The notes beneath the pieces are model-generated. The model had not been told where the DNA came from, did no database searches, and saw only the letters and a list, made by a program, of their open reading frames with translations. Source: a virus. From it: DNA of 64,000 nucleotides. A program made the translations under genes and the position numbers. Every line of letters begins with the position of its first letter. Positions within the stretch are counted from its first letter, which is position 1. The stretch covers positions 1-64,000 of IMG/VR virus record IMGVR_UViG_3300021962_000076; one strand, given 5' to 3'. Positions 12,345 through 28,871 of the stretch are shown piece by piece.

Positions 12345-13516
12345 TGCAAGAACAAAGATATTATTTTAGGATTTCACCAGAAAATATAAAAGGAGATATT
12401 ATTAATGTACCATATACTGGAGAAACAGATATTTCGGTTTTAATTGATCCATGTTGTCCAATAACTGCAACAACTATAAATACGTTAACAGGTACAACTG
12501 GTGTTTATGTACCAATGCCATCAATATTAAGTGGAGGGACACATGGTGAATCATTATTAACTTGTCTTACATTACCATTATTATTTACCGAAAACACAAA
12601 TGATTTGGGGTATTATACGCCATTTGATGGTGCAATTTATCAAAAAGATTTGGTAAATAACTTTGTGACATCAGCGACAACCTCATCACCATACGAGGTT
12701 ATTTTTTATAACACATCACAAACTAATTTTAAGAAATTTTTATCAATAAATACCTTTGTTGTTGATTGGGGAGACAATTCACCAGAAACGACAATAACAA
12801 GTTATACTCCAGTAACACATACCTATCCAATTGCAAACACAAATTACACAATAACTATGAAAAGTTATTCACCATGGGGTGTGTCAACAGTAAAAAAGGA
12901 AGTGATTGTACCATTTACTGGAACAACAATACCAAACCCAAATGGAACTGCATATTTTACTTCAGCGGGTTGTTATTGGAGTGGTACGCCAATAAGTTAT
13001 GACTACTTATTTACTGGTGATTCAAATACAAATATTTCAGATTATAATTCAAGCGGATATACAACAACACCATTCCTTATAACTGGATATACTAAAAGCT
13101 CATTAAGTGATTTAGCACAATATGGACCAAAATATAATTTATTTGGCGGGAAATACAAATTAAATGTACCAGTGACTGGAACATCAGGTGATTATGGAAT
13201 TGTATATGGTCCAGATCCATCTAATACATATACCGCATATACAATAAATGATATTTTGTATTGGGATATAAACGATGGTACTACAATATATTTTTTAACA
13301 TCAGATGGTATTGTTGATAGTAATTACACATTATCCGCATTAACCAAAAATGAGGCATTACTAAACGTTATTGACGAACCACAAATACAGTCAAATCTTT
13401 TTGTTGAGAGAGGTAAGATTTCTGGTTTAGAGGCAATACAAAGACTAGGAGAAGTCGATAATTTAGGAGATATTACTAAATATGGTTATGGATACTTTAA
13501 TGTCAAAAAATATTAA
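12344..13516 (+). CDS. Structural protein with PKD-like domain
   Basis: 390 residues. Residues about 139-196 form a PKD-type Ig-like domain: FVVDWGDNSPETT, then THTYPIANTNYTITM, with the WGDN and HTY signatures. PKD domains are common in surface and adhesion proteins of Bacteroidota and occur in phage fibres. The N-terminal YYFRISPENIKGDIINVPY and the C-terminal RGKISGLEAIQRLGEVDNLGD are not recognised. The start overlaps the previous stop by one base. A TATTTATA element lies just downstream, so the baseplate operon may be re-initiated after this gene. Confidence 0.65.
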   Translation: MQEQRYYFRISPENIKGDIINVPYTGETDISVLIDPCCPITATTINTLTGTTGVYVPMPSILSGGTHGESLLTCLTLPLLFTENTNDLGYYTPFDGAIYQKDLVNNFVTSATTSSPYEVIFYNTSQTNFKKFLSINTFVVDWGDNSPETTITSYTPVTHTYPIANTNYTITMKSYSPWGVSTVKKEVIVPFTGTTIPNPNGTAYFTSAGCYWSGTPISYDYLFTGDSNTNISDYNSSGYTTTPFLITGYTKSSLSDLAQYGPKYNLFGGKYKLNVPVTGTSGDYGIVYGPDPSNTYTAYTINDILYWDINDGTTIYFLTSDGIVDSNYTLSALTKNEALLNVIDEPQIQSNLFVERGKISGLEAIQRLGEVDNLGDITKYGYGYFNVKKY

Positions 13517-14470: not shown

Positions 14471-17466
14471 TGGCAAATAAATTTACTTGTCCACCACAAG
14501 CCTCAGGTCAGGGGTCGTTTTCAGACAATCTAGTTGGATTCCAACTAGTTGATGGAGGGGGTTTTACACAAGGTAATTTTGAATTTACAACAGCTATTAG
14601 CGAAAAGCAGGATAGAAATTTTATTATTGGAACATTTTCAGACCCAATATCATTGGATAGTATGAATGTTACCAACATTGAGGAGTCTAGATTTCTAGTT
14701 GCAAAAAATTTCCAAATATACCCAAATTATGATTTAACAAATGTTACAAACTTTACACAATATGGGTCATTATCACTTAGGTTTTCAAACTCAATAACTA
14801 GAATTATAAATTATTTTCCTGCGGCATTAGACGTACAAAAAATTAGATCTAATTTTAGTGTTGGTAATACAGCCGAAAATATAACCTATGACCCAATAGA
14901 TAATGAGACAAAAATTGATATACCATTATTATCTATAAAAAACCCATTAGGGATTGATTATTCAGCAAACGCGGAAAATAATGTAAATGCCTTAGAAATC
15001 ACAGTATCAAATCTAAGGAATTTTAAAAATAATTTCCAAAAGTATGCGGTATATATTGACGAAGAACCATTTTCAATAAATGACATTGTACCAACAACAT
15101 TAGATAGTACTCATTTAAGATTATACATCAATGGTAATCCATTCCCAAACCAAACAACATCAGAAAAGAATTTCCTAATAAGACCAAATGATATGTATGT
15201 CAACAAAGTCTTTAATGATAATTTTGATGGTGTTGAAAATTTCTTATTAAATAGAAATATTACACCAAAATACATGGCATATTTTAATGTCCCTAAATTA
15301 CAAGAAGATGGTAATTATATTTTTACTTACGACTCTGCGGCATTTCCATTAGATGGTAATTGGAATTTAGATATTAGAACAAATGCTTTTAATCAATACC
15401 TAGATAAATTAAATAATTTTGCAATTAATTTTGATGAATATAAAACAAACTTAATATCTAGATTTTTAACAACCGCATCATTAAAAGAATTCGATACCGC
15501 GGATAAAAAAGTTGAGAAGATGTTACAGATATATGGTAGAAGTTTTGACAACACCAAAACTTTTATTGATGCACTTAGCATGATGAATTCTGTAAATTAT
15601 AATGTTAAAAACGATATACCATCTCAGTTACTAACCAATTTAGCACAAACACTAGGTTGGAAAACAAATATATCGCCAATAACAGAAGATGAATTACTTA
15701 ATTCTTTATTTAAATCAGAAGATAATACATTTACTGGCGTCTCACAAGGTAAAACACCAGATGAATTAAATTACCAGTACTATAGAAATCTAATTTTAAA
15801 TTCAGCATTTCTATTTAAATCTAAAGGTACTAGAAAATCAATTGAAATTTTATTAAGACTTATTGGCGCTCCAGATTTTTTAGTTGATTTTAATGAATAT
15901 ATCTACATAGCAGACCAAAAAATTAATATATCAGAGTTTAACACAAAATACGCCCAAATATCGGGAGGAACCTACGTTAGTCAAACACCAGTGTTAGACC
16001 CAACAGATACCTTCTCAATTATGGGAGTGCAATATACTGGAACCACGTATCAAACAACAACAACAGATATTAGTGTGACCAACATAGACTACCCAATTGA
16101 TAGCTTTGGATGTCCTAGTATGCCAGTTGAGAGTGAATCATATTTCTTCCAAATAGGTGGGGGTTGGTTTGAATCAACACCACAACATAGAATGCCAGAA
16201 CAAGTTGATTTAACAACAAGTGTTTTTACTGGATCAAATCCAAATTATCAAACAACGTTAAAACCATTCAATTATGGTGATGAATATCTAGAAAGATATA
16301 GAAATTTCCCATTTATGGATATGGGCTTTAGATTGAGAAGGGTTATTGATAACAAAAAAAGCTGGACTGATAAAGAAATTAATTTAAGAAATTCATCAGA
16401 TGGGAACTTTAATGCGTATTATAATATTGGAGAAGAGTGTTTAGCAATTAACGTTAAAAATGTTGATATTATGCTAAACCCAAGTTTCGGTCTATTATAT
16501 GATGTTTATACAATGTCAAGAACGTACAACTACCCAATACCAAATGAAGGGCTTCAATACGTCAAACCAACATACTGTAATCCAGACCCTATTAATAATT
16601 ACCCAAGAAGGGGTGGTATTGATTGGACTGAAATAATACCAAAACCAAAAGAAAAAACCTTCTTTGAGTTTGCACAGACTTTTTGGAGAAATATGATAAA
16701 TGTTAGAAATAGACAATTTATCACAGACGGAAAAACTGGAGGATACCCAACATTACAATCAATTTATTGGAAATATTTAGAATCAGATCAAGCGATTAAT
16801 ATACCAAATGATAATTTTACATATCGTACTATGATTGATTATGTAAATAAATTAGGCGACTATTGGGTTAGATTAATTGAACAAATGGTTCCAGCAACAA
16901 CGATATGGAACACTGGTGTTAGGTTAGAAAACTCAATATTTCATAGACAAAAATTTGTATGGAGAAGACAATTTGGTTGTAAGATTATACCAATACCTTG
17001 CAAACCTTGTGAATTAACAACACAATTATTTGCTTACGATTGTACATTACAAGAAATTACACATTGGTTATACCCATGGAATTATAATCCAAATATCGTA
17101 TCATTTGGTACTATATTAACTGAAACATTAAACACGTATTTAAGTAATCTTGGAATTACATTAAATCAATGTATTTTAAATACCCTAAACTCACAATGGT
17201 ATGTTGAAATTAAATTAAATGGAAATATTATAGCTCTTGAACAATTTGCGGAAACAAATGGATATGTACAGACACCAACAAATCAAGAGTGGGTTGATGG
17301 TGTAGCTAACGCCCTACAAACATTAGAAACTAGTGGTATTTATTATGCAATTGACTTAGATAACGAAACAATTATTATATATAATAATAACTGTGTACCA
17401 TACCAATATGACGATGAATTTGAAATCAACGTTGGGATAAACTTTAATATATTATGTAATCAATAA
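14470..17466 (+). CDS. Large tail/baseplate protein with KGTRKSIE-type tail-protein domain
   Basis: 998 residues. The middle (about residues 425-480) contains LNSAFLFKSKGTRKSIEILL followed by RLIGAPDFLVDFNEYIY, a pattern I associate with phage baseplate-periphery proteins related to tail protein I (SKGTR, then a small-domain FGI-type turn). The C-terminal 95 residues resemble the end of the next protein (743 residues): a short beta region, an acidic helix, then IDLDNETIII versus IDFNTNSIKI, both ending in a Cys-containing strand. That shared module suggests a common docking or trimerisation end. One-base overlap with both neighbours. Probably links baseplate to adhesins. Confidence 0.65.
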   Translation: MANKFTCPPQASGQGSFSDNLVGFQLVDGGGFTQGNFEFTTAISEKQDRNFIIGTFSDPISLDSMNVTNIEESRFLVAKNFQIYPNYDLTNVTNFTQYGSLSLRFSNSITRIINYFPAALDVQKIRSNFSVGNTAENITYDPIDNETKIDIPLLSIKNPLGIDYSANAENNVNALEITVSNLRNFKNNFQKYAVYIDEEPFSINDIVPTTLDSTHLRLYINGNPFPNQTTSEKNFLIRPNDMYVNKVFNDNFDGVENFLLNRNITPKYMAYFNVPKLQEDGNYIFTYDSAAFPLDGNWNLDIRTNAFNQYLDKLNNFAINFDEYKTNLISRFLTTASLKEFDTADKKVEKMLQIYGRSFDNTKTFIDALSMMNSVNYNVKNDIPSQLLTNLAQTLGWKTNISPITEDELLNSLFKSEDNTFTGVSQGKTPDELNYQYYRNLILNSAFLFKSKGTRKSIEILLRLIGAPDFLVDFNEYIYIADQKINISEFNTKYAQISGGTYVSQTPVLDPTDTFSIMGVQYTGTTYQTTTTDISVTNIDYPIDSFGCPSMPVESESYFFQIGGGWFESTPQHRMPEQVDLTTSVFTGSNPNYQTTLKPFNYGDEYLERYRNFPFMDMGFRLRRVIDNKKSWTDKEINLRNSSDGNFNAYYNIGEECLAINVKNVDIMLNPSFGLLYDVYTMSRTYNYPIPNEGLQYVKPTYCNPDPINNYPRRGGIDWTEIIPKPKEKTFFEFAQTFWRNMINVRNRQFITDGKTGGYPTLQSIYWKYLESDQAINIPNDNFTYRTMIDYVNKLGDYWVRLIEQMVPATTIWNTGVRLENSIFHRQKFVWRRQFGCKIIPIPCKPCELTTQLFAYDCTLQEITHWLYPWNYNPNIVSFGTILTETLNTYLSNLGITLNQCILNTLNSQWYVEIKLNGNIIALEQFAETNGYVQTPTNQEWVDGVANALQTLETSGIYYAIDLDNETIIIYNNNCVPYQYDDEFEINVGINFNILCNQ

Positions 17467-19697
17467 TGTCATTTCCTTTAGAAATATTAAATTTATCAAT
17501 AACTGGTGATTGTTCATTAGTTAGTGGCGGGTCAATTAACCTTTTATTTACTGGTGGGACAGCACCATTGGCGGTTTATGAAGCACCAATAACAACTGGA
17601 TTATTACCCACTTCAGGTTATACATCATTTGATTACACCCTTTATCAAGCTAGTGGATTACCACCCGGTGAATATTTTTTAACTATAGCAGATTCTTCAG
17701 CCTCAATCCCCGATATTGTTATACCATTCAATATTTCATCTGGAAGTACAGTACTAATAGATGCTGAAAATACAACTTGTGGTTTTAATAATGGATCAAT
17801 AACCGCATCAACTAGCAGTAATTTTGGACAAGTAACACTTAGTTTATATAATTCATTAGACAATTTAGTTGAAACACAAATAGCACCATACCCAACTTCA
17901 ACAGCATATTTTACAAATTTATCTGCTGATACATATTATGTTATTGGTGATGATGGTGGTGGCTGCACAGGACAAAGTGCTTCAGTTGTAATATTACCAT
18001 CAACAAGCTTTAATTATGGTGCTTATATTGTAAATGACTCAAGTTGTGTATCAACTGAAGGACAAGGAAAGATAATAATAACAGGTCTTACAACACCAAC
18101 AAGTGCGTATACAATAAATTGGATTAGTGATGTTAATGGTCAAACAGGAACAACAGTAACAGGATTAACACAAGGACTATATACTGTAGAAATAACAAAT
18201 CCTATTGGTTGTACCAATCAACAAGCATTTTTTGTTGACTTAGTACCATTAGTTGGAATTGGCTCTTTAATTGTAACCCAACCCCCAAGCTGTTTTACAA
18301 GTGATGGTGAAGTAACTGTTGTTGTTACTGGTGGTACGGCTCCATATTTTTATGTTGGGTCAAATGGGGATACATTTGTTAATTTTAGCACATCACAAAC
18401 ATTTACGAATTTACCAGGAGGTTTATTTACTGTGACAGTCACAGACGCTGGACTTTGTAGTGCTTCACAATCGGTACTATTAAATACACCAAATAGTTTT
18501 GGTGGAATTACAATACAAACAACAAACTCAACTTGTAGTAACAATAATGGTCAAGTCTCGATTAGTTTAGGATTTGCAGCACCAGGGTCTTATAATTATA
18601 GTATATCTGGTATTAGCGGATCACTATTTTTTCAAGAAAATGGGGTGGGGACACAAACGACATTCCCAAACCTAACATCAGATGATTATATAATAACAAT
18701 TGACAATGGTAGTGGATGTATTTTTACCGGAACAACAACCATTAGTAATTTAGATAAATTTACAATAGGGACTACAATTAGTGGAACTACTTGTGGTAGC
18801 AATAATGGAGAATTATTAGTTAGCTTATCTTCTGGTACAACAGGTAGTATCGCAACAACACCAGTGTTATATAACTTACAAGGACCATTACCTTCACTAT
18901 CAAATACAACACAACCTATTGGGTATTTCCCAAATTTACAAGAAGGGACATACCAATTAACAGTGACAGACTATAGTGGTTGTTCACAAATTGAAACAGT
19001 TTTTATTGACCCATCTAGCGCTGTTGATTTTATTTTAGTTGGTACAAACCCATTTACTGGTTATGATGGTGAAATTACGACTTTAATTACAAATGGGGTC
19101 CCACCATTTACATTAGTTTGGTCTGGAGATGTTATGGGGCAAACAGGCACAACAATAACTGGTTTAACATCAGGAACATACGAACTAACAGTTATAGATA
19201 GTGAAGGATGTTATAGAACTAGATCAATAACATTAAATGGTACTATATTAGTTGGTGGATATGAATCATACGTTGTATCAACAGAAACTTTTTCAGACAC
19301 AGATTCAGTTAGTAAACGAGGTATACTACAAATGTATAACGAAGGATTTTCTGATTTAACTAGTGGTGATACAAATTGTATTGTAACTGGTGCAACATTT
19401 ACATTAGATGTTATAGTTGGGTCTGAGTCGAAACAAAACTTATTTTATACATCGACAGGTTTAACAGACTATCCATCTGATTATTTGTGGAGTGAAGCAA
19501 TTAAAGAAACTTTAAATGAATTTGTTGGTATTGGAGAAGTTATTATAGATTTTAATACAAATAGTATTAAAATAACAAATGATTGTGATGAAATTAAAAA
19601 AGATTGTAAAAGGGAGACATATAATCTATTAAACGATGAGAAAATCATAATAAATTTAATTATTGATTATGACATTGCTTGTGTAGAATGTGCTTAA
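17466..19697 (+). CDS. Tail-fibre-like protein with SprB-type repeats
   Basis: 743 residues made of about seven tandem repeats of the SprB class, each with a small Gly turn, a GTAPY-like loop, and an ending such as GLYTVEITNPIGC or GTYELTVIDSEGC. Clear examples are GEVTVVVTGGTAPYFYVG and the GQTGTT(V/I)TGLT segments near residues 225 and 560. SprB repeats are known from gliding adhesins of flavobacteria, so the phage uses a host-type adhesive fold. The last 95 residues match the C-terminal module of the preceding protein. One-base overlap with that gene. Role as a receptor-binding or stalk protein is inferred. Confidence 0.75.
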   Translation: MSFPLEILNLSITGDCSLVSGGSINLLFTGGTAPLAVYEAPITTGLLPTSGYTSFDYTLYQASGLPPGEYFLTIADSSASIPDIVIPFNISSGSTVLIDAENTTCGFNNGSITASTSSNFGQVTLSLYNSLDNLVETQIAPYPTSTAYFTNLSADTYYVIGDDGGGCTGQSASVVILPSTSFNYGAYIVNDSSCVSTEGQGKIIITGLTTPTSAYTINWISDVNGQTGTTVTGLTQGLYTVEITNPIGCTNQQAFFVDLVPLVGIGSLIVTQPPSCFTSDGEVTVVVTGGTAPYFYVGSNGDTFVNFSTSQTFTNLPGGLFTVTVTDAGLCSASQSVLLNTPNSFGGITIQTTNSTCSNNNGQVSISLGFAAPGSYNYSISGISGSLFFQENGVGTQTTFPNLTSDDYIITIDNGSGCIFTGTTTISNLDKFTIGTTISGTTCGSNNGELLVSLSSGTTGSIATTPVLYNLQGPLPSLSNTTQPIGYFPNLQEGTYQLTVTDYSGCSQIETVFIDPSSAVDFILVGTNPFTGYDGEITTLITNGVPPFTLVWSGDVMGQTGTTITGLTSGTYELTVIDSEGCYRTRSITLNGTILVGGYESYVVSTETFSDTDSVSKRGILQMYNEGFSDLTSGDTNCIVTGATFTLDVIVGSESKQNLFYTSTGLTDYPSDYLWSEAIKETLNEFVGIGEVIIDFNTNSIKITNDCDEIKKDCKRETYNLLNDEKIIINLIIDYDIACVECA

Positions 19698-19706
19698 TAT
19701 ATTTTT

Positions 19707-20003
19707 ATGAGTGAAATAACAATAAATACCATTTCAGGACTAACACCACCATATAGTGTTTATGTGTGTAATGTTTATGGCGTTTATTGTGAATTTATAG
19801 GAGTTACAACAACAACACCAACAACAATAGTATTACCACCAGCTTTTGATTCAGCACCAATTGTGGGGATTAAAATAATTGATAGTACTGGTTGCGAGAG
19901 ATTTAAACTAGTTGAATGTCTTGATTTATCACTAGACGAAAAAGAATTCCAAAATGGAGACACATTTTATTTTATGGATTATGAAATATATCAATTCCAA
20001 TAA
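19707..20003 (+). CDS. Small fibre-associated beta protein (paralogue of 28650-28871)
   Basis: 98 residues. The pattern ITINTISGLTPPYSVYVCN, then C, then IIDSTGCE matches the 73-residue minus-strand protein at 28650-28871 (IINDISGQTPFNVYVCD, then VIDDNSCE). It resembles one shortened SprB-like repeat. It follows the SprB-repeat gene after 9 nt and probably caps or decorates a fibre. No characterised homologue known to me. Confidence 0.6.
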   Translation: MSEITINTISGLTPPYSVYVCNVYGVYCEFIGVTTTTPTTIVLPPAFDSAPIVGIKIIDSTGCERFKLVECLDLSLDEKEFQNGDTFYFMDYEIYQFQ

Positions 20004-20015
20004 CTTAGATTATTG

Positions 20016-20023
20016 TATTTATA
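20016..20023 (+). promoter_or_regulatory. TATTTATA element before YadA-type fibre gene
   Basis: TATTTATA 10 nt before the ATG at 20034. Confidence 0.45.
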
Positions 20024-20033
20024 ATTAAAAAAG

Positions 20034-20972
20034 ATGGCGTTATTAACAGATAGAACTTTAGCAACAGGCGTAACATTACAAGATTTAATACACATTGTAA
20101 TTCCAACAGATATTTCACAAAATCCAGCTGGATCATCATATAAAGCAACAATACAACAAATTGGGGACGCATTAAGTGGAAGTAGTTATTGGACTTCAGG
20201 GTCAACTGGGAATTATTCAGTTAAAACAATTAATGACAGTGGATTAGATGCTATAGGTGAATATTCAGTAGCAAGTGGTTATTTAACAACGGCAAGTGGT
20301 GATTATTCTTATGCGGAAGGAGTCGAAACAATAGCGTCAGCACCAATTTCGCATGCCGAGGGATATCAAACAATAGCTAGTGGCACAGCGTCTCATGCTG
20401 AGGGTGTGTTAACGATTGCCAGTGGTCAAACAGCCCACTCTGAGGGTTATAATACAATTGCTGGTGGTGTAGCAGCCCACTCTGAGGGTGGTTATAATCT
20501 AGCTTCTGGTGACTTTTCGCATGCTGAGGGTCATGAAACAAAAGCTTCTGGTTATTCTTCACATACTGAGGGTGATAATACTAGTGCTTCTGGTGATTAT
20601 TCTCACGCTGAAGGTAGATATACATATGCTAATGGTATGACATCACATGCTGAGGGTTCTGGTACCACTGCTAATGGTGCGGCAACACATTCTGGTGGGT
20701 TTAATACTAGCGCATTGGGGGACTATTCCTTTATACATTCAAATAATTCAATAGTAACTGGTGATAGAAGTGTTGTTTTGGGTGGTCAGGGTATAACTGG
20801 TACAACAAGTGATACTGTTTATGTTCCAGATTTTGTAATTAAAAAAACCGCATCTGTACCAACTAGCTCTGCTGATGCTGTTGGTGAAAATGGTTCCATT
20901 ACTTGGGATAATACTTATTTTTATTGGAAGGCAAATGGGCAATGGCTTAGAGTTTCTGGGTCAACATTTTAA
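20034..20972 (+). CDS. Tail fibre with YadA/Hep-Hag-type beta-roll repeats
   Basis: 312 residues. After an N-terminal attachment region, residues about 70-250 consist of a 14-16-residue repeat of the form ASGxxSHAEGxxTxA, for example ASGDYSHAEGRYTYA, more than ten copies. This is the left-handed parallel beta-roll head of trimeric autotransporter adhesins (YadA), which phages also use. The C-terminus (GSITWDNTYFYWKANGQWLR) looks like a small tip domain. Trimeric receptor-binding fibre is the natural inference. It follows a TATTTATA element and precedes a putative glycosyltransferase. Confidence 0.8.
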   Translation: MALLTDRTLATGVTLQDLIHIVIPTDISQNPAGSSYKATIQQIGDALSGSSYWTSGSTGNYSVKTINDSGLDAIGEYSVASGYLTTASGDYSYAEGVETIASAPISHAEGYQTIASGTASHAEGVLTIASGQTAHSEGYNTIAGGVAAHSEGGYNLASGDFSHAEGHETKASGYSSHTEGDNTSASGDYSHAEGRYTYANGMTSHAEGSGTTANGAATHSGGFNTSALGDYSFIHSNNSIVTGDRSVVLGGQGITGTTSDTVYVPDFVIKKTASVPTSSADAVGENGSITWDNTYFYWKANGQWLRVSGSTF

Positions 20973-21120
20973 TAATATATTAAAAATTTAACTAATCACA
21001 AAATAAAGATTTACACTTTTTCTAAAATCAAACTATCTATATTTATTTGGTATTTTTAACAAAAAAAATGTATTCATTATTTTAACATTTAAATTATATT
21101 TAAAAATATAATATTAAAGA
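20973..21120 (+). other. 148-nt AT-only-like intergenic leader
   Basis: Very AT-rich gap with no ORF or clear hairpin terminator. It contains TATATTTATT (element at 21040-21047). The longest leader before any structural gene here. Confidence 0.4.
21040..21047 (+). promoter_or_regulatory. TATTTATT element, 73 nt before glycosyltransferase gene
   Basis: TATTTATT in the AT-rich gap; longer leader than usual for this element, so support is weaker. Confidence 0.3.
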
Positions 21121-22095
21121 ATGAATAATTTAGTTTTTGTTACAGCACAACCAGACGTACCTTATTTTCATTGGCAAATAAAATTATATACACATAATTT
21201 TATTGAAAAAGGAATTGACCCAAAAAATATACACGTCATTTTAGCCATGGTCCATGGCGCTACAACACAATCAGAAGGTGCTAAAGAATTATTAAACCAA
21301 GGATATAACGTTCATTTTTATAAAGACGATAGAGATAAAAAGTCATATATCCCAAGTATAAAACCATACCTAGTTTCAAAATGGTTAGAAGAATATCCAG
21401 AATTTGGTAAAGTATTCTTTTTACATGATGCGGACATTATATTTAACAAATTACCAGATTTTGATAAATTATTAAGTGATGATATAAGTTATTTATCAGA
21501 TACAATTGGTTATATTGGATATAATTATATTATGGATTGTTGTGATCGATATGAAAAACAACACCCAGAATCAGAAAAAGGACAATTAATACAAGAAATG
21601 GCCAATGTTGTCGGACTAGATGTTGAGACAATTAAAAATAATCAAGAAAATTCTGGTGGAGGCCAGTATATTATAAAAAATACAGATTATAAACTTTGGG
21701 ATAAGATATACAAAGATTGTACACCATTATATAATCAAATGTTAGATTACCAAAGAAGATTCCCAATAAATCCTGGTCAAATACAATTTTGGACGGCAGA
21801 AATGTGGTCAGTACTTTGGAATTTATGGTTAGTTGGTAATGAAACCAAAATAACAAAAGAGTTAGATTTTTCTTGGGCAACAGACGATATAAAAAGGTAT
21901 GAAGAAATGCCAATACTTCATATGGCAGGTGTAACAGATAATTTAAAAGATGTTAAATTTTATAAGGGGGATTATATTAATAAAGACCCAATCAAATCAT
22001 TAATAAATAACCCAAACCATTTTGATTATATTGATAAAAATAGTTCTACAATAAAATATATCGAATTAATGAAATCTTTTATAAAAAATAAATAA
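21121..22095 (+). CDS. Putative GT-A-fold glycosyltransferase
   Basis: 324 residues. The N-terminus (NNLVFVTAQPDVPYFHWQ) looks like a Rossmann-type nucleotide-sugar domain. FFLHDADIIFNK around residue 100 gives an HDAD motif (D103, D105) like the DxD metal site of GT-A enzymes. Later motifs GGGQYIIKN, EMWSVLWNLWLVG and ILHMAGV resemble the acceptor side of peptidyl hydroxyproline or serine glycosyltransferases. It lies inside the tail-fibre block, so modification of fibre proteins (several very Thr-rich) is a plausible role. Family name is uncertain; sugar donor unknown. Confidence 0.6.
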   Translation: MNNLVFVTAQPDVPYFHWQIKLYTHNFIEKGIDPKNIHVILAMVHGATTQSEGAKELLNQGYNVHFYKDDRDKKSYIPSIKPYLVSKWLEEYPEFGKVFFLHDADIIFNKLPDFDKLLSDDISYLSDTIGYIGYNYIMDCCDRYEKQHPESEKGQLIQEMANVVGLDVETIKNNQENSGGGQYIIKNTDYKLWDKIYKDCTPLYNQMLDYQRRFPINPGQIQFWTAEMWSVLWNLWLVGNETKITKELDFSWATDDIKRYEEMPILHMAGVTDNLKDVKFYKGDYINKDPIKSLINNPNHFDYIDKNSSTIKYIELMKSFIKNK

Positions 22096-22100
22096 ATGAT

Positions 22101-22108
22101 TATTTATA
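22101..22108 (+). promoter_or_regulatory. TATTTATA element before 756-residue fibre gene
   Basis: TATTTATA 11 nt before the ATG at 22120. Confidence 0.45.
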
Positions 22109-22119
22109 TATAAAACAAT

Positions 22120-24390
22120 ATGGCAGGGTGCGATCAATGTAGGCAAACTATTTTAGTAAATACAGGTGTAACGGTTAGTGTTGCAACATTAATTGATTGT
22201 AGTGGTAATACAACATCTTTTAGTTTAGCACCAACATCTGGATTCACAACATACGAACCATATATTACCGATTTTTGTAGTGGAACCACAATTAGCGGTG
22301 ATACACTATATATCGATAATGATTATCCACTAACACATTGGTACTCCTTTAGTTCTTGTTGTAATAACGAAGAGTTTATCGTCTACTCAAGTTCAAAACT
22401 AATCCAAACAGGAGAGACAATAAATATAATTGATTCTAAATCATATAATGGAAATGTATATACCGGATGTTATACCTGTACAAATACTGATAAAATTGGT
22501 TCTAACGAACCTATTTTAGATAGATTAATATATTTTGAACCACAAGGAAGTCCTATTGAAGGCATTATTATCTATAAACTAGGCTGCGTAAGTTGTCTTG
22601 AAGTAAATCCATGTCCTACAATATGTTATAAATTATATTCTTGTGACAATCTATATGATCCATTTTATAGTAAAAACGAAGGACTATCTGGTTTTGTGAA
22701 TAATTATGTTTCTTTAACAACTAGTGGTATAACTAATGGATGTTTTTATGTTACAGGAGTTGAAAGTTGCGACAATTATGAAGATGTTACAATAAATTAT
22801 GATATAATGTGTGAGTGCACATGTAGTTGCTACACTTATACAATACCTGAGAATTCTAAACCAATAATAATAACTTATATTGATTGCAATGATAACGAAA
22901 TATCTAATTATGTTAATACAGGCGCCACAACAAGTATTTGTTCAAAGATAACTCCTTTATTTTATAATGAAGTAAATCGAATTATAATCCCAATTAAAAA
23001 TAATGGTCCATGTATTAATGGAGAATGTCAAAAACAACCAATAACAATAAAACCAAGAAATGAGTGTGATGTTATAACTATTTTCCCTATGGGAGTTAGT
23101 TGCTTAGTAACAAACCCATCATCAGTAAATTCATTTGATGGTTATACATACTTACAAATAACAGGAGGAACACCACCATATACAGTAATGTGGGAGAATG
23201 GAAGTTATGGACAATCTTTAAGTGATTTAAACATAGGTGAATATAGTGCGACAGTTACAGATTTTTATGGTGATTTTATAATTAACACAACTTGCGTATT
23301 AACAGCTACAACAACTACTAGCACAACAACCACAACAACAACAATACCAGTAATTTATGGACCATTATGTCTATCATATAATGAAAGTGTACATTATAAT
23401 ACCACAACAACACAAGTCCAATTTGAACCATCTATCAACATTAACAATCAACCAAGTTGGACTGGTACAACAGACTATTTACTATATTGGAACGAAAATC
23501 AATGGATTATAACTGGAAGTACAATTAATGGGGATTTAGTAAATAATAATCCAATAACACCACCATTAGTTGGTTGGCAATTCCTAGGTAATCCATATTA
23601 TGTTGCGGATACATTATTATTATATTCAGGTTTATGCACTAGTGGTGAAGCAATAATTTTAAATCAAATTGCAAATACAAATGTTGACTGTAATAATTTA
23701 GGATCAATTGCAATAACACCAAATGGAGGTACACAACCATATTTATACTCAATTAATGGAGGAATAAACTACTATAACACACCAATATTTAATAATTTAC
23801 AACCAGGCACATATTTCATTAAAACTAAAGATTCTTTAGATAATGAATCACAAATAACAGAGGTATTAGTTGAAAATATACCAACACAACAATATACATT
23901 ATCATTAAATGTTGATCAAAACACAAATACATTTACAATAACACCAGATAGTAGTTTACCACCATATCAAACTATATCATTTAATTTTGGACATATTAGT
24001 ACCTTCATTGGAGTATCAACAATAAATCCAGGGCAATCATATGACAATATAGTAAGTTTTGGTGCTTTAGGAACTATGACATATGTTGGACAAAATAATT
24101 CAACAGATACTATAATTTGTGGTGGATATGTTACTCCTAGACAAATACAACAAACAACATATACAAAAGCACTAACAATAAATGGTGGTGAGACAATAAC
24201 TGGATCATTTACTGATTTACTAAACTATGGGATTTGGACACCAACCGAATGTAGATATATAGATGGTCAGTACACATTATTCATTGAAAGTGCTAATTGT
24301 GGCGACTGTTGTATTGTAAAAATTATAAATCCACCATTAACACAAAATCTTGGAGGAGGTAATTTTGTGTTACCACCAAAATTACCATAA
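22120..24390 (+). CDS. Modular fibre protein: Cys-rich N-terminus, SprB-like repeat, Thr linker
   Basis: 756 residues. The N-terminal 300 residues are Cys-rich beta modules, one of which (ITYIDCNDNEISNYVNTGAT followed by SICS) resembles the C-terminal module of the minus-strand protein at 27556. Residues about 340-390 hold an SprB-like unit (LQITGGTPPYTVMWENGSYG, then GEYSATVTDFYG). A poly-Thr linker (TTTTSTTTTTTTIP) follows, and then another repeat-like unit with GGTQPYLYSINGG. This is the build of a long, linker-jointed adhesin. Thr linkers may be glycosylated by the neighbouring transferase (inference). Confidence 0.7.
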   Translation: MAGCDQCRQTILVNTGVTVSVATLIDCSGNTTSFSLAPTSGFTTYEPYITDFCSGTTISGDTLYIDNDYPLTHWYSFSSCCNNEEFIVYSSSKLIQTGETINIIDSKSYNGNVYTGCYTCTNTDKIGSNEPILDRLIYFEPQGSPIEGIIIYKLGCVSCLEVNPCPTICYKLYSCDNLYDPFYSKNEGLSGFVNNYVSLTTSGITNGCFYVTGVESCDNYEDVTINYDIMCECTCSCYTYTIPENSKPIIITYIDCNDNEISNYVNTGATTSICSKITPLFYNEVNRIIIPIKNNGPCINGECQKQPITIKPRNECDVITIFPMGVSCLVTNPSSVNSFDGYTYLQITGGTPPYTVMWENGSYGQSLSDLNIGEYSATVTDFYGDFIINTTCVLTATTTTSTTTTTTTIPVIYGPLCLSYNESVHYNTTTTQVQFEPSININNQPSWTGTTDYLLYWNENQWIITGSTINGDLVNNNPITPPLVGWQFLGNPYYVADTLLLYSGLCTSGEAIILNQIANTNVDCNNLGSIAITPNGGTQPYLYSINGGINYYNTPIFNNLQPGTYFIKTKDSLDNESQITEVLVENIPTQQYTLSLNVDQNTNTFTITPDSSLPPYQTISFNFGHISTFIGVSTINPGQSYDNIVSFGALGTMTYVGQNNSTDTIICGGYVTPRQIQQTTYTKALTINGGETITGSFTDLLNYGIWTPTECRYIDGQYTLFIESANCGDCCIVKIINPPLTQNLGGGNFVLPPKLP
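23306..23345 (+). repeat. ACA/ACT trinucleotide tract coding poly-Thr linker
   Basis: In-frame run of mostly ACA and ACT codons. Similar tracts occur at 25025-25059 and, on the other strand, at 27767-28367, so it can slip by whole codons and offers homology for recombination. Confidence 0.7.
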
Positions 24391-24405
24391 AATATCATTA
24401 CTTAG

Positions 24406-24413
24406 TATTTATT
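24406..24413 (+). promoter_or_regulatory. TATTTATT element before 825-residue gene
   Basis: TATTTATT only 4 nt before the ATG at 24418, the same close spacing as at 1615. Confidence 0.4.
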
Positions 24414-24417
24414 AGAA

Positions 24418-26895
24418 ATGGCATATATAATAAAAAATACATCGGGATTAGTAAACACTAGAGTTACAGACATTGGACGCCAAAAATTATCACAAGGTAA
24501 CTTTAAAATTTCATATTTTCAGATTGGAGATAGTGAAATTTCATATGATAAAATTCCACAAAATTATAACCAATCAAATAGCTTTGTATTAGAGCCGCAA
24601 TTTAATTCACAAAATGCCGCAGGTGTTCCACAATCAAATAGACAATATGTAAAATATCCATATTTAGTTGATGAAGCACAAACCAATATATATGGAATTC
24701 CATATATGGATTCACTAATTGAATCTGTATTTAATAGAGCACCACTTAGAGGATTTTTTACTGGGGACACAACACAAGGTATAATAAATTGGGACTTATT
24801 GACTAATGACAAATATGTTGTTAGTGCAAATTATATTGTAAATACTGCAACCCTAAATGGGTCTAATCAAATTGAAATTATATATTCAGGAACTAATACT
24901 AGTAATTTACAAACACCACAAATTGGTGATATAATTACAATATACTATGATGGTAAAGCCAAAAATAACGTTGAGTGTTTTAATTTGCCAACACCAACAC
25001 CAACACCAAGTATTAGTTCATCACCAACAACCGCAACTACAACAACTACAACAACAATAGTTGATTGTGCTTCACCAACACCTACACCTACACCAAGTAA
25101 GACACCTTGTTTAACACCAACACCAAGTCCACAATGTCCATTACCACCATACCCAGATTGTTTTATGGGTATGAATAGTTGTACTATAATGTTAACATAT
25201 AGAATTATTGATGTTTGTAAAAATACGTTAACATTAGATAGACCAACACCAGATTATAGATTTTTCCCAAGCGATTGTTATTCTAGAGTAATTATTTACC
25301 CATCGAATATGACACAAATATACGATAGCATAACCCCAGAGCCACATTGGAACGATCAGGTAATTGATTTTGAATCAATTTGTGATACTGACCAATTTGA
25401 TGTTAAAATATGGAATATGAATATACCTTGGACTGAAAATCCAGCAGGGATAATTGAAACACAATATGAAGGATACCAAAATTCATTATCTATTGACTAT
25501 ATTGGGTCTAAAGAATATTTTGGATATAACTCAAGTGAGGGACAAACAGATACTAGTGCAACTTTTTATTATAATTCATTAGGTGATATTGTAACAACAA
25601 AACCAGAAGACCAAAAAGCAATTGCGATTATACATTATACAAATCAAACAATAGATTTCTTTTATGGTGAAAAATTTGCATTAGAACCATATAACCCATC
25701 GAATCCTAGTGATACAACAGGACAAGCAAGAAACTTTAAACTACATATTCCTTGGTTAATGTGGCATAAAAACCCTAATTGTTGTAATGGTCAAACGTTT
25801 TGGGTTGACCCACCAGGATTTGATGACAAAGACTTATTTAAACCATATTATATTAAATCCACAAGGAATGAAACTATGAACCAACCAGGTATTAGGTATT
25901 ATCATTTGTGGGACACAAACAAAAATAACGATGGGCTACCAAATAGAATTGGTAAAGTATTTCCAGATAGTAAATTAGTTATTATTGATGATGATGAGAT
26001 TATTGCTGCAATGTCATATAAAGCAAATAGAAACTGGACATTACCAGCACCACAATTATCACTATTAACACCAAATACATGTGACACAACAACATCACAA
26101 TTTGGTATTTTAACAGGTAGTAATCAAACTATGTATGTAACATATAGATTAACAAATAAATTTGGATTTACAAATTCGTTACATTGTAATTATTATGTTA
26201 AAATACAAGGTAACAATAATGAATGTAATCCAGATACAACTAAAAATGTTGCTATTAGATTTGGCGAAGAGTTTGGATGTTTAATACAACCAGGATATTC
26301 ACCAGTTACAACTACTACAACATATTATCCAGTTACAACAACAAGTACTACATACCCATGTTATGGATGTGAACTACCAGATGGGTATTTTGGTGACGAA
26401 TTCCAAGTCCTAGCACAAATTGTTGCAACAGGAGAAAGACCGGACCCGACAAAGTGGAAAATAATTGATTTTACAAGTCAAATTAGTAACAATTTTATAA
26501 ATGGGTACATAACACAAGAATCAATTGTTAATAGTACCTTTGTTATAACAAATGAGAATTATCAAGCAGCACCTTATTATAATTTAAATGATTATATACC
26601 ATTAACACCATTAAATACAACAACTAAAAAATTAAATTTTGGCGATGAGTTTTATTTTTATGGTGCAATAGAAACAGACATACAAGCAACAATATATGAA
26701 ATGAAATACAAAATAAACCTAAGTTCAAACGAGTTTCAAGTATCAACAAACCCATCTTGGACATTGGGGACTCCATCATATATAACAGAAATTGCTCTAC
26801 TTGATGATAATAAAGATATTTTGGTTATGTCTAAATTACAATCACCTACATTAAGACAAGGTATACAGCAGTATGTGGTTAAGATAGATTTCTAA
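24418..26895 (+). CDS. Structural protein with Pro/Thr-rich linkers
   Basis: 825 residues. The N-terminal 190 residues (MAYIIKNTSGLVNTRVTDIG, then FQIGDSEISYDKIP) look like a virion-attachment domain. A linker with PTPTPTP, a poly-Thr run, and PTPTPTPSKTP follows. The central 350 residues are aromatic, beta-type and Cys-containing, with motifs such as LHIPWLMWHKNPNC. A second Thr linker (VTTTTTYYPVTTTSTT) precedes a C-terminal domain ending in IKLDF-like strands. No family recognised. Position and linkers mark it as an extended fibre or collar-type structure. Confidence 0.65.
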   Translation: MAYIIKNTSGLVNTRVTDIGRQKLSQGNFKISYFQIGDSEISYDKIPQNYNQSNSFVLEPQFNSQNAAGVPQSNRQYVKYPYLVDEAQTNIYGIPYMDSLIESVFNRAPLRGFFTGDTTQGIINWDLLTNDKYVVSANYIVNTATLNGSNQIEIIYSGTNTSNLQTPQIGDIITIYYDGKAKNNVECFNLPTPTPTPSISSSPTTATTTTTTTIVDCASPTPTPTPSKTPCLTPTPSPQCPLPPYPDCFMGMNSCTIMLTYRIIDVCKNTLTLDRPTPDYRFFPSDCYSRVIIYPSNMTQIYDSITPEPHWNDQVIDFESICDTDQFDVKIWNMNIPWTENPAGIIETQYEGYQNSLSIDYIGSKEYFGYNSSEGQTDTSATFYYNSLGDIVTTKPEDQKAIAIIHYTNQTIDFFYGEKFALEPYNPSNPSDTTGQARNFKLHIPWLMWHKNPNCCNGQTFWVDPPGFDDKDLFKPYYIKSTRNETMNQPGIRYYHLWDTNKNNDGLPNRIGKVFPDSKLVIIDDDEIIAAMSYKANRNWTLPAPQLSLLTPNTCDTTTSQFGILTGSNQTMYVTYRLTNKFGFTNSLHCNYYVKIQGNNNECNPDTTKNVAIRFGEEFGCLIQPGYSPVTTTTTYYPVTTTSTTYPCYGCELPDGYFGDEFQVLAQIVATGERPDPTKWKIIDFTSQISNNFINGYITQESIVNSTFVITNENYQAAPYYNLNDYIPLTPLNTTTKKLNFGDEFYFYGAIETDIQATIYEMKYKINLSSNEFQVSTNPSWTLGTPSYITEIALLDDNKDILVMSKLQSPTLRQGIQQYVVKIDF
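25025..25059 (+). repeat. ACA/ACT tract coding poly-Thr linker
   Basis: Second plus-strand Thr-codon tract, within the Pro/Thr linker of the 825-residue protein. Confidence 0.65.
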
Positions 26896-26946
26896 AAAAC
26901 ATTTAGTTTTAAATAAAATCAATTACTTTCTAATAAAACATAGTAT

Positions 26947-27555
26947 ATGGCAAAAGATATTAAAAACACACCAAAGGTTTTAGGATTAGACATATCAACA
27001 AAAACAATAGGGTGGGCATTATTTGACGTAAAAAGTCAAGAGTTACTAGAATTAACACACATCTCACCTAGGCCAAAAATGGATAAAAATAATGATGATA
27101 AATTAAAAGAGTTATTACTTAAGTCTGAAATTTTTGCACAAAAACTAATGGAATATAAAAATTTAGGTATATTAAAAGTGATAATTGAAGAACCATTATT
27201 AAACTCAAACAACATATACACAATACAAACACTATTAAGATTTAATAGCTTTATTTTTAAAGAAATTTATAATATTTTAGGAATTGTACCACAATTTATA
27301 TCAACATATAACGCAAGAAAATTTGCCTGGCCAGAACTAGTAAAAGAAAACGAAAAGGGTAAACACGTATTATTTGGCGGCCTACCAAAGGATATTGATA
27401 AAAAAATGTTAGTATGGGAAAAAGTAGCAAAAAAAGAACCACAAATTATATGGTCATACACAAAAAATAATACACTTAGAAAAGAAAATTTTGATCAAAC
27501 AGACGCGTATACTTGCGTCTTAGGCTATATGAAATCAAATGAAATTTGGAAATAA
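26947..27555 (+). CDS. RuvC-like Holliday junction resolvase (RNase H fold)
   Basis: 202 residues. The pattern VLGLDISTKTIGWALFD with D15, VIIEEP with E81/E82, and FDQTDAYTCVLGY with D183 and D186 gives the three acidic clusters of the RuvC/RNase H nuclease fold. Such phage enzymes resolve branched DNA before packaging. Length fits the family (about 170-200). It closes the plus-strand fibre block, and its stop directly abuts the stop of the convergent minus-strand gene. No clear promoter; the 51-nt gap upstream has only weak promoter-like sequence. Confidence 0.8.
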   Translation: MAKDIKNTPKVLGLDISTKTIGWALFDVKSQELLELTHISPRPKMDKNNDDKLKELLLKSEIFAQKLMEYKNLGILKVIIEEPLLNSNNIYTIQTLLRFNSFIFKEIYNILGIVPQFISTYNARKFAWPELVKENEKGKHVLFGGLPKDIDKKMLVWEKVAKKEPQIIWSYTKNNTLRKENFDQTDAYTCVLGYMKSNEIWK

Positions 27556-28653
27556 TTAATTACATAAATTACCAGTAACATCAATTTCCAGTAATGGCCC
27601 ACCTGGGAAACTAGTTTGCACTGGTGTAGTCGCTGAACAAAGAATTATTGTGTCTCCTTTATTAATAACCCCAGATATATTACCAGTACAATCAGAGAAT
27701 TCAAAACTAATTCCAATTTGGTTACCATTGTATATATGATACTCATTTAAAATACAAGGAGCTTCAGTTGTGGTAGTTGTTGTTGTCGAAGTTGAAGTCG
27801 AAGTTGTTGTTGTTTGAGGAGGTGGACACTCTAAACAAGCACCATCTTTCTCTAAACCAATCTCATACAAAACCTTAATATTGTCTATACCACTTATATT
27901 ATCGGCTAAACCAAGGAATGTAGCACATGTCGTATATGAATTAGTTAACGTATTAATCTGAATCTTGTAAACGACCCCCTGATTAATTATGGTATTTTCA
28001 GCAATTAAATTTAAGACCTCTGATGTATAATACTCAAAACCATTAAAACAATCCTTAAACACTTTTGTATTACCACATCTCATATACTCATCAAATATGT
28101 TAAATGTGACAATACCATCGAAAATACATTTACGATTAATTGTTGTTGTTGTAGTTGTTGTTGGAACAAATGTTGTAGTAGTTGTTGTATATGTTATAGC
28201 AGAATAACTAATAGAAACACCGCTACATAAATCTGGAGGTATTGTAGTTGTTGTAGTTGTTGTAGTTGTTGCAGATGTTGTCGTGGTAGTTGTTGGAACA
28301 ATACAATCAAAGATTGCGTCAAAATCAAAGACATCACAAGGTGAAGTTGTTGTAGTTGTAGTTGTAGGACAAGCACCAGAGGAGCTAGCAACAAGGGATA
28401 TACCGTCCCAAAAGTCAGGACATACCGAGAAACTATTTAAAGGACCAAATTGATCACAAGTCCCGCCCAATGAACTTGATAAACACCATAGATTTTCAGT
28501 TACCCCAGTGCTAAAATAAATAAAATAAGATGATGTTATACCAGTATAGTAATTGTATCCATTGTATGTACCACCAGAAAGGAATACATCATCATATACG
28601 TATCCAGTATTAAATATACAAACAGTACTTCCAGTACAAGTAAAAGACATCAA
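27556..28653 (-). CDS. Modular Thr-linker fibre protein (minus strand)
   Basis: 365 residues with short Cys-bounded modules joined by poly-Thr linkers: ACPTTTTTTTSPC, PTTTTTTSATTTTTTTTTIP, FVPTTTTTTTINRKC and QTTTTSTSTSTTTTTTTEAP. The C-terminal module (ISFEFSDCTGNISGVINKGD, then LCSATTP) resembles one in the 756-residue protein. It begins inside the 3' end of the 73-residue gene (4-nt overlap), so the pair is co-transcribed from the element at 28887. Opposite orientation to all other fibre genes is odd and may reflect inversion or insertion. Likely an adhesin or fibre tip component. Confidence 0.65.
   Translation of the reverse strand: MMSFTCTGSTVCIFNTGYVYDDVFLSGGTYNGYNYYTGITSSYFIYFSTGVTENLWCLSSSLGGTCDQFGPLNSFSVCPDFWDGISLVASSSGACPTTTTTTTSPCDVFDFDAIFDCIVPTTTTTTSATTTTTTTTTIPPDLCSGVSISYSAITYTTTTTTFVPTTTTTTTINRKCIFDGIVTFNIFDEYMRCGNTKVFKDCFNGFEYYTSEVLNLIAENTIINQGVVYKIQINTLTNSYTTCATFLGLADNISGIDNIKVLYEIGLEKDGACLECPPPQTTTTSTSTSTTTTTTTEAPCILNEYHIYNGNQIGISFEFSDCTGNISGVINKGDTIILCSATTPVQTSFPGGPLLEIDVTGNLCN
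27767..28367 (-). repeat. Cluster of four Thr-codon tracts
   Basis: Four blocks of GTTGTTGTAGTT-type sequence on the plus strand (about 27767-27814, 28140-28189, 28242-28294, 28345-28367), coding poly-Thr on the minus strand. They are near-identical to each other in base pattern and complementary to the tracts at 23306 and 25025, i.e. inverted copies. Confidence 0.7.
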
Positions 28654-28871
28654 ACATTAATTATTTCATTTATTTCACAACTATTATCATCAATAACTCT
28701 TAGTGTAAAATTTCCAGAGTTAGTCAGTAATGTAGGAACTTCAAAAGTGTAGGGAAAGTCACCAGGTGTTATTGTATTTACATAAATACAAGTTGTATAT
28801 CCAGTATCACAAACATAAACATTAAATGGTGTTTGGCCTGAAATATCGTTAATAATAACATCTGTTGGCAT
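28650..28871 (-). CDS. Small fibre-associated beta protein (paralogue of 19707-20003)
   Basis: 73 residues, MPTDVIINDISGQTPFNVYV at the N-terminus and RVIDDNSCE near the end. It aligns by eye with the 98-residue protein at 19707. In both places the small gene stands beside a larger fibre gene, but here it is first and there it is last. A TATTTATC element lies 15 nt upstream. Confidence 0.6.
   Translation of the reverse strand: MPTDVIINDISGQTPFNVYVCDTGYTTCIYVNTITPGDFPYTFEVPTLLTNSGNFTLRVIDDNSCEINEIINV

Follow-up and report, generated by a model that had tools for sequence, protein, structure and literature searches.

Poly-threonine tracts as proposed acceptor sites of an adjacent PHROG 4417 glycosyltransferase in phage virion proteins

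What are long runs of threonine (Thr) codons for in the fibre-like genes of a phage? The question is raised by positions 1 to 64,000 (the window, i.e., the whole stretch of 64,000 nucleotides analysed here) of the 74,650-base IMG/VR virus record IMGVR_UViG_3300021962_000076. Tracts of Thr codons are found in three of its genes: FIB756 (22120..24390, + strand), which encodes a modular fibre-like protein, ANCH825 (24418..26895, +), a conserved structural-type protein, and FIBm365 (27556..28653, -), an oppositely oriented modular protein. A first-pass annotation had located the tracts in exactly these genes, as we confirm, and had read them as joints for the shuffling of receptor-binding modules. 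We propose another answer, to which we assign a probability of roughly 0.77: the tracts are acceptor sites of the glycosyltransferase (GT) encoded next to them, GT324, i.e., glycosylated linkers in virion surface proteins. The fold and DxD motif of GT324, the co-inheritance of GT and tracts in several phage groups, and the peptide-modification context of related enzymes make the tracts better read as GT substrates. The Thr glycosylation as such, as well as the identity and the purpose of the sugar, we infer.

Among the window proteins of more than 150 amino acids (aa), Thr runs of at least 5 are confined to the three proteins named, and none of the others has a run longer than 4. FIB756 contains a Thr-run linker with TTTTSTTTTTTT (23308..23343). 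ANCH825 has two such linkers (TTTTTTT at 25036..25056 and TTTTT at 26308..26322), and its linker region 190-243 is predicted to be disordered. In FIBm365, which consists of 20% Thr, we count six runs: TTTT and TTTTTTT (27766..27813), TTTTTT and TTTTTTT (28141..28188), the longest one, TTTTTTSATTTTTTTTT (28243..28293), and TTTTTTT (28345..28365). Each run lies on the strand of its gene.

The GT324 gene (21121..22095, +) sits immediately upstream of FIB756. Its product belongs to PHROG 4417 (expect value E 4e-70), a family without assigned function, of which a search of the available literature for poly-Thr and phage glycosylation returned no account. No match was obtained against Pfam and NCBIfam, nor a relevant one in a sequence search of the PDB. 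The AlphaFold2 model reaches a mean predicted local distance difference test score (pLDDT) of 94.5 and is matched by Foldseek to glycogenin, UGGT and xyloside xylosyltransferase (probability 1.00, E about 1e-6). Residues D103-x-D105 are invariant across 48 relatives, with corresponding aspartates in 11 diverse members. Based on this predicted structure, we are confident that GT324 is a glycosyltransferase of the GT-A fold with a DxD motif.

Co-inheritance was assessed for 106 distinct relatives of the locus in which either the GT is present or the upstream sequence is sufficient to see its absence. GT and ANCH Thr run are both present in 79 and both missing in 22 of them; 5 have the GT alone, and none has the run alone. 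Part of the sample was fetched via the GT itself, which raises the number of GT-positive loci and leaves the contrast intact. For the 20 GT-less loci tested, the GT is absent from the entire record, and GT-less relatives carry Pro-Thr or other linkers at the tract site. The tree requires 7 GT changes. In independent pairs that differ in the tract, the tract sides with the GT and never opposite to it.

The association extends beyond the GT's neighbourhood. In whole records (107-322 kilobases, kb), Thr runs of at least 7 are found in 7/10 with GT vs. 0/8 without. Some of the runs in GT-positive records are located far from the GT, i.e., in the sheath protein of the tail (phrog_23 with E 3e-54, and Phage_sheath). 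Here, 10 GT-positive records with readable sheath were compared with 8 GT-negative ones. Runs of at least 5 occur in four of the former (G022, G023, G027, G032), with TTTT and Ser-Thr runs in a fifth (G028), but in 0/8 of the latter, which show TTTT at most. At the respective site (about residues 255-395; loci L309-L327) the relatives differ: some have a linker with a Thr run, some one of the Pro-Thr type, and others a longer insert that resembles a domain; the longer insert is found in most GT-negative records and one GT-positive record.

A similar picture emerges for unrelated phages. GT homologues (E 1e-5) are encoded in 74 cultured-phage records from Enterococcus, Lactobacillus, Staphylococcus, Lactococcus, Arcanobacterium and Chryseobacterium, their identity being 27-38% when compared with the window protein or, for the most distant ones, with the GT of phage Bacchae. 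Of 13 regions examined, 11 have a poly-Thr segment near the GT, which mostly forms the C-terminal end of a capsid or tail protein (e.g., in phiFL2B, Bacchae, 1706, bIL285 and nattely). In bIL285, a prophage of Lactococcus lactis IL1403, the Thr tail near the GT comprises 9 residues. Homologous tail proteins of GT-less phages show poly-Thr in 0/8 cases. The tail proteins of TPWB06 (with GT) and SEP9 (without) are 70% identical, and only the former has a Thr tail. Within one tail-protein family, the 7 GT-positive members have Thr tails (counting that of L184, which the search pattern missed), while the 5 GT-negative members have none. In bacterial genomes, all 36 Bacillota loci with at least 45% identity (prophages) show Thr runs in the vicinity of the GT, in most cases C-terminal ones; at 35% identity, two loci (L213, L214) have no such runs near it. 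As a further observation, the terminal Thr run of the major tail proteins of RQ1 and TPWB06 (L094:4232-4934, L095:4158-4920) overlaps a frame that codes for longer poly-Thr, which looks, from the reading frames, like a programmed frameshift giving a minor Thr-extended tail protein.

We also reversed the direction of selection. Among 60 viral loci chosen for a poly-Thr coding run, 8 encode the GT, compared with 0/79 chosen for poly-Gly (hypergeometric probability about 0.0009, for loci that are not fully independent). The association thus holds without selecting on the GT.

Several observations weigh against the tracts being substrates of this enzyme. First of all, the other 52/60 viral poly-Thr coding loci (L338-L415) are without a PHROG 4417 GT in the stretch examined, such that poly-Thr does not need this enzyme and may be served by other GTs or form unmodified linkers. 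The 5 GT-positive relatives without ANCH runs include 2 that have no FIB runs either, and the most divergent phage GTs (SAC12B, LP65) have no runs nearby. Well-supported independent contrasts are few, i.e., 3 in the own family and 2 in the tail-protein family, and either tree by itself is therefore not significant. Finally, the TM-scores of the Foldseek matches are just about 0.4-0.5, and to our knowledge no PHROG 4417 enzyme has been assayed.

Some of these points are what one would expect if the Thr runs were unmodified, flexible low-complexity spacers and the GT acted on DNA, a host glycan or another protein. The many GT-less poly-Thr loci as well as the Pro-Thr linkers at the equivalent site of GT-less relatives agree with that. 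Against it speak that GT and Thr runs come and go together in unrelated phage groups and also at unlinked genes, that the GT is positioned next to capsid and tail genes, and that the cellular homologues have a peptide-modification context. We consider mere spacers unlikely.

Regarding the cellular homologues, those from Bacteroidota chromosomes are mostly longer and have no poly-Thr partner. The commonest gene family among their neighbours is LanC-like (12/75); many of the homologues lie next to genes of this family or to LanB and SPASM genes, and the GT gene of one locus (L213:9848-11203) also codes for a PqqD-type domain. Homologues located in lanthipeptide-like clusters were seen in L213, L215, L216, L221, L233, L236 and L246; judged by their gene context, these are possibly peptide glycosyltransferases. 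Such peptide-modification neighbourhoods fit an acceptor that is a ribosomal peptide.

In terms of mechanism, the poly-Thr tracts would form extended, mucin-like linkers of virion surface proteins, onto whose Thr hydroxyls GT324 would move sugar from a nucleotide sugar. The resulting rods would be stiff, coated with sugar and resistant to proteases; they would keep the Cys-bounded receptor or adhesin modules apart and might also shield the virion or decorate it. More broadly, we lean towards PHROG 4417 being a widespread virion-glycosylation system. That is, a peptide O-glycosyltransferase related to enzymes of lanthipeptide-type clusters would use poly-Thr tails and linkers as acceptor code on capsid, tail tube, sheath and fibre proteins of Bacillota and Bacteroidota phages, and a Thr run beside the gene would predict a glycosylated virion.

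The role put forward initially, i.e., Thr tracts as recombination or slippage joints that shuffle receptor-binding modules, with inversion between opposed tracts, can be judged at the nucleotide level. The tracts do share a base pattern, as had been stated. This is correct but trivial, since their codon mix (ACA 53, ACT 19, ACC 4, ACG 1; n=77) matches the ordinary Thr codon usage elsewhere in the window (ACA 600, ACT 257, ACC 75, ACG 34; n=966). The suggested length changes by whole codons did not hold up: among the close relatives compared, there is no single-codon change, and the occasional tract changes are gains or losses of a whole unit (e.g., TTTTTLNPIV) or module. In 253 distinct tracts from relatives, identical neighbouring codons are rarer than expected by chance (454 vs. 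521 +/- 14) and the longest pure codon run is 6; since the tracts have common ancestors, we take this deviation as an indication and not as a strict test. Its direction is the reverse of what a slippage device predicts. On the basis of ordinary codon usage and the codon-repeat comparison, we reject a slippage or microsatellite reading.

What stands is the modularity of the genes. FIB756 contains a Cys module ITYIDCNDNEIS..G..CS (22870..22950, +) and FIBm365 a C-terminal one, FEFSDCTGNIS..G..CS (27610..27712, -). Their local alignment score is 58 compared with a mean of 24 after shuffling, 0/2000 shuffles reach it, and BLASTP pairs them with E 3e-5, which bears out the claim of a related module on both strands. 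Modules common to different genes show at most 66% aa identity and are, going by this divergence, old paralogues. Module exchange within one genome was rejected, since the cross-gene modules are too diverged.

Between close relatives, modules or entire alleles are gained or replaced, namely in SprB (L116/L159), ANCH (L162/L170) and FIBm (L022/L031). The SprB protein of L159 has a C-terminal module that is missing from that of L116. L022 and L031 are 99.5% identical over 13 kb until just beyond the RuvC gene, after which the FIBm allele is swapped; relative to both L020 and L031 (99.5-99.8% alike), the entire FIBm allele of L022 is exchanged directly after that gene, from position 13253. Tracts and module order are unchanged in the near-identical record L002 (99.996% identity over 22.5 kb). 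A comparison of module order, as had been proposed, finds gains and replacements among close relatives and invariance at near-identity. The suspected shuffling machine survives insofar as the genes are modular and their modules or alleles get replaced, but not with the Thr tracts as its machinery.

For such joints speak, beside these replacements, whole units that changed between Thr runs (L021/L176, L116/L126, L162/L170), the repeated inversion of a gene block, and inverted Thr-codon matches. The latter make up most of the inverted repeats between opposite strands; the longest perfect one has 22 nucleotides among the matches listed. The codon mixture is, on the other hand, ordinary and de-repeated, tract lengths do not change by single codons in close relatives, and a recent inversion has its breakpoint within a C-terminal module. 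Joints would furthermore leave unexplained why the tracts track the GT gene, why runs occur in the sheath, and why other phages have C-terminal poly-Thr in capsid and tail proteins. We therefore consider it very unlikely that the tracts serve as joints, and retain the glycosylated linkers.

The genes o98, Yad312, GT, FIB, ANCH and RuvC form a block (19707..27555, +) whose orientation varies, in whole or part, among lineages; going by the gene arrangement, the 3' end of SprB743 (17466..19697, +) is a boundary of the block inverted in relatives. SprB743 is a SprB-repeat adhesin-like protein according to PF13573 (E 1.8e-10, 40.7 bits vs. Pfam gathering threshold 28). In 12/99 distinct lineages, the SprB743-FIBm365 block is reversed in whole or part relative to SprB. 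On the ANCH tree, orientation changes 6 times, and at least 4 changes are forced by well-supported branches. In the closest case, L116 and L159 show 96-97% identity on both flanks with the fibre block flipped. Their junction lies inside the C-terminal module of FIBm at the 18-mer GTAGGTACAAATAGTTGT, where there is no Thr run; L116 stops at its contig end just past the GT side of this junction. Of the supposed inversion between opposed tracts, the flipping as such is thus observed in at least 4 supported lineages, but the breakpoint examined is outside the Thr runs. Homologous SprB and FIBm ends were rejected as a general inversion substrate, because they share nucleotide stretches, mostly short, in 12/86 loci only.

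A programmed site-specific phase-variation switch for the fibre genes could also produce the flips, which are seen in 4 or more supported lineages and in one case between phages of about 97% identity. Such a switch seems highly improbable to us: among the block genes no invertase is recognised but only the RuvC-like resolvase (26947..27555, +; phrog_159, E 1e-5), and no crossover site common to both block ends was found in the window, where the longest inverted matches lie in Thr runs within genes. Moreover, no near-identical flipped pair was present among the first 80 loci (L116/L159 turned up later), and L116 ends next to the junction. From these comparisons, we read the inversion as a rearrangement that happens now and then in evolution, and see a programmed switch as unsupported. 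Over evolutionary time it would arise by recombination and would be a matter separate from glycosylation. Close to both block ends, o98 (19707-20003, +) and m73 (28650-28871, -) are apparent inverted paralogues (ISG.TP..VYVC), and some relatives have an o98-like gene on the FIBm side.

The remaining features are summarised briefly. The window codes for baseplate-wedge proteins (phrog_219, phrog_6) and a row of large structural-type genes. FIB756 has a SprB-like stretch, with 25.9 bits to PF13573 under the cut-off of 28. ANCH825 has about 350 relatives in IMG/VR; its structure model is poor (pLDDT 58.7), and a fold search with it gave no PDB match at E 0.001. Neither ANCH825 nor FIBm365 was matched in cultured phages using tblastn. 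The YadA-head-like protein (20034-20972) ranges from about 180 to 1700 aa across relatives and is a candidate hypervariable fibre. An HNH/endonuclease VII-like gene (681-1292, +) adjoins a ribonucleotide reductase fragment and possibly encodes a homing endonuclease.

If correct, the glycosylation reading would provide a function for an unassigned phage protein family. Beyond actinobacterial phages, virion glycosylation would take in many phages whose hosts are Gram-positive bacteria or Bacteroidota, and poly-Thr together with PHROG 4417 would be a sequence signature that predicts glycosylated virion proteins. It would also connect the enzymes of phages with those that modify peptides in bacterial natural-product clusters. 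Virion glycans could influence stability, antibody recognition and adsorption. Cultured phages open to testing include Lactococcus bIL285 and 1706, Enterococcus phiFL and Chryseobacterium MA9V-3.

How does the locus relate to known systems? With GT-A enzymes of the GT8/GT24 type (glycogenin, UGGT, xyloside xylosyltransferase), GT324 shares the fold and the invariant DxD, but only about 10% identity, and it has no match in Pfam and NCBIfam. GT-like proteins from Bacteroidota clusters for lanthipeptides or other ribosomally synthesised and post-translationally modified peptides contain a GT domain that is homologous to the phage enzyme (about 26-36% identity with the phiFL2B GT); they differ in being cellular, usually 500-600 aa long with an extra domain, and without poly-Thr partner. 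The flipping of a fibre-type block relative to its flanks resembles the invertible tail-fibre systems Mu gin and Min; here, however, it is seen across lineages only, and neither an invertase nor shared crossover sites were recognised.

Among known phenomena, the glycosylation of mycobacteriophage virions comes closest. Its O-linked form was reportedly described by Freeman et al. in Cell Host Microbe in 2023. According to articles that cite this work, mycobacteriophage glycans sit on capsid and tail tube subunits, at their C-terminal ends (PMC12619734), and the virion glycosylation of these phages is also treated in PMC11256854. Both systems have a phage-encoded glycosyltransferase, and the C-terminal acceptors on capsid and tail correspond to the poly-Thr of the Bacillota relatives. 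Differences lie in the enzyme, as PHROG 4417 matches no mycobacteriophage in the phage collection, and in the near-pure Thr acceptor, which in the window forms internal linkers of fibre-like proteins whose modification is predicted only. Ser/Thr-rich acceptor segments are present as C-terminal poly-Thr in capsid and tail proteins of relatives, as sheath inserts, and as internal linkers in the window. By analogy, the GT324 system would work like mycobacteriophage virion glycosylation, using a different enzyme family, given that no Mycobacterium phage is among the 74 matching records.

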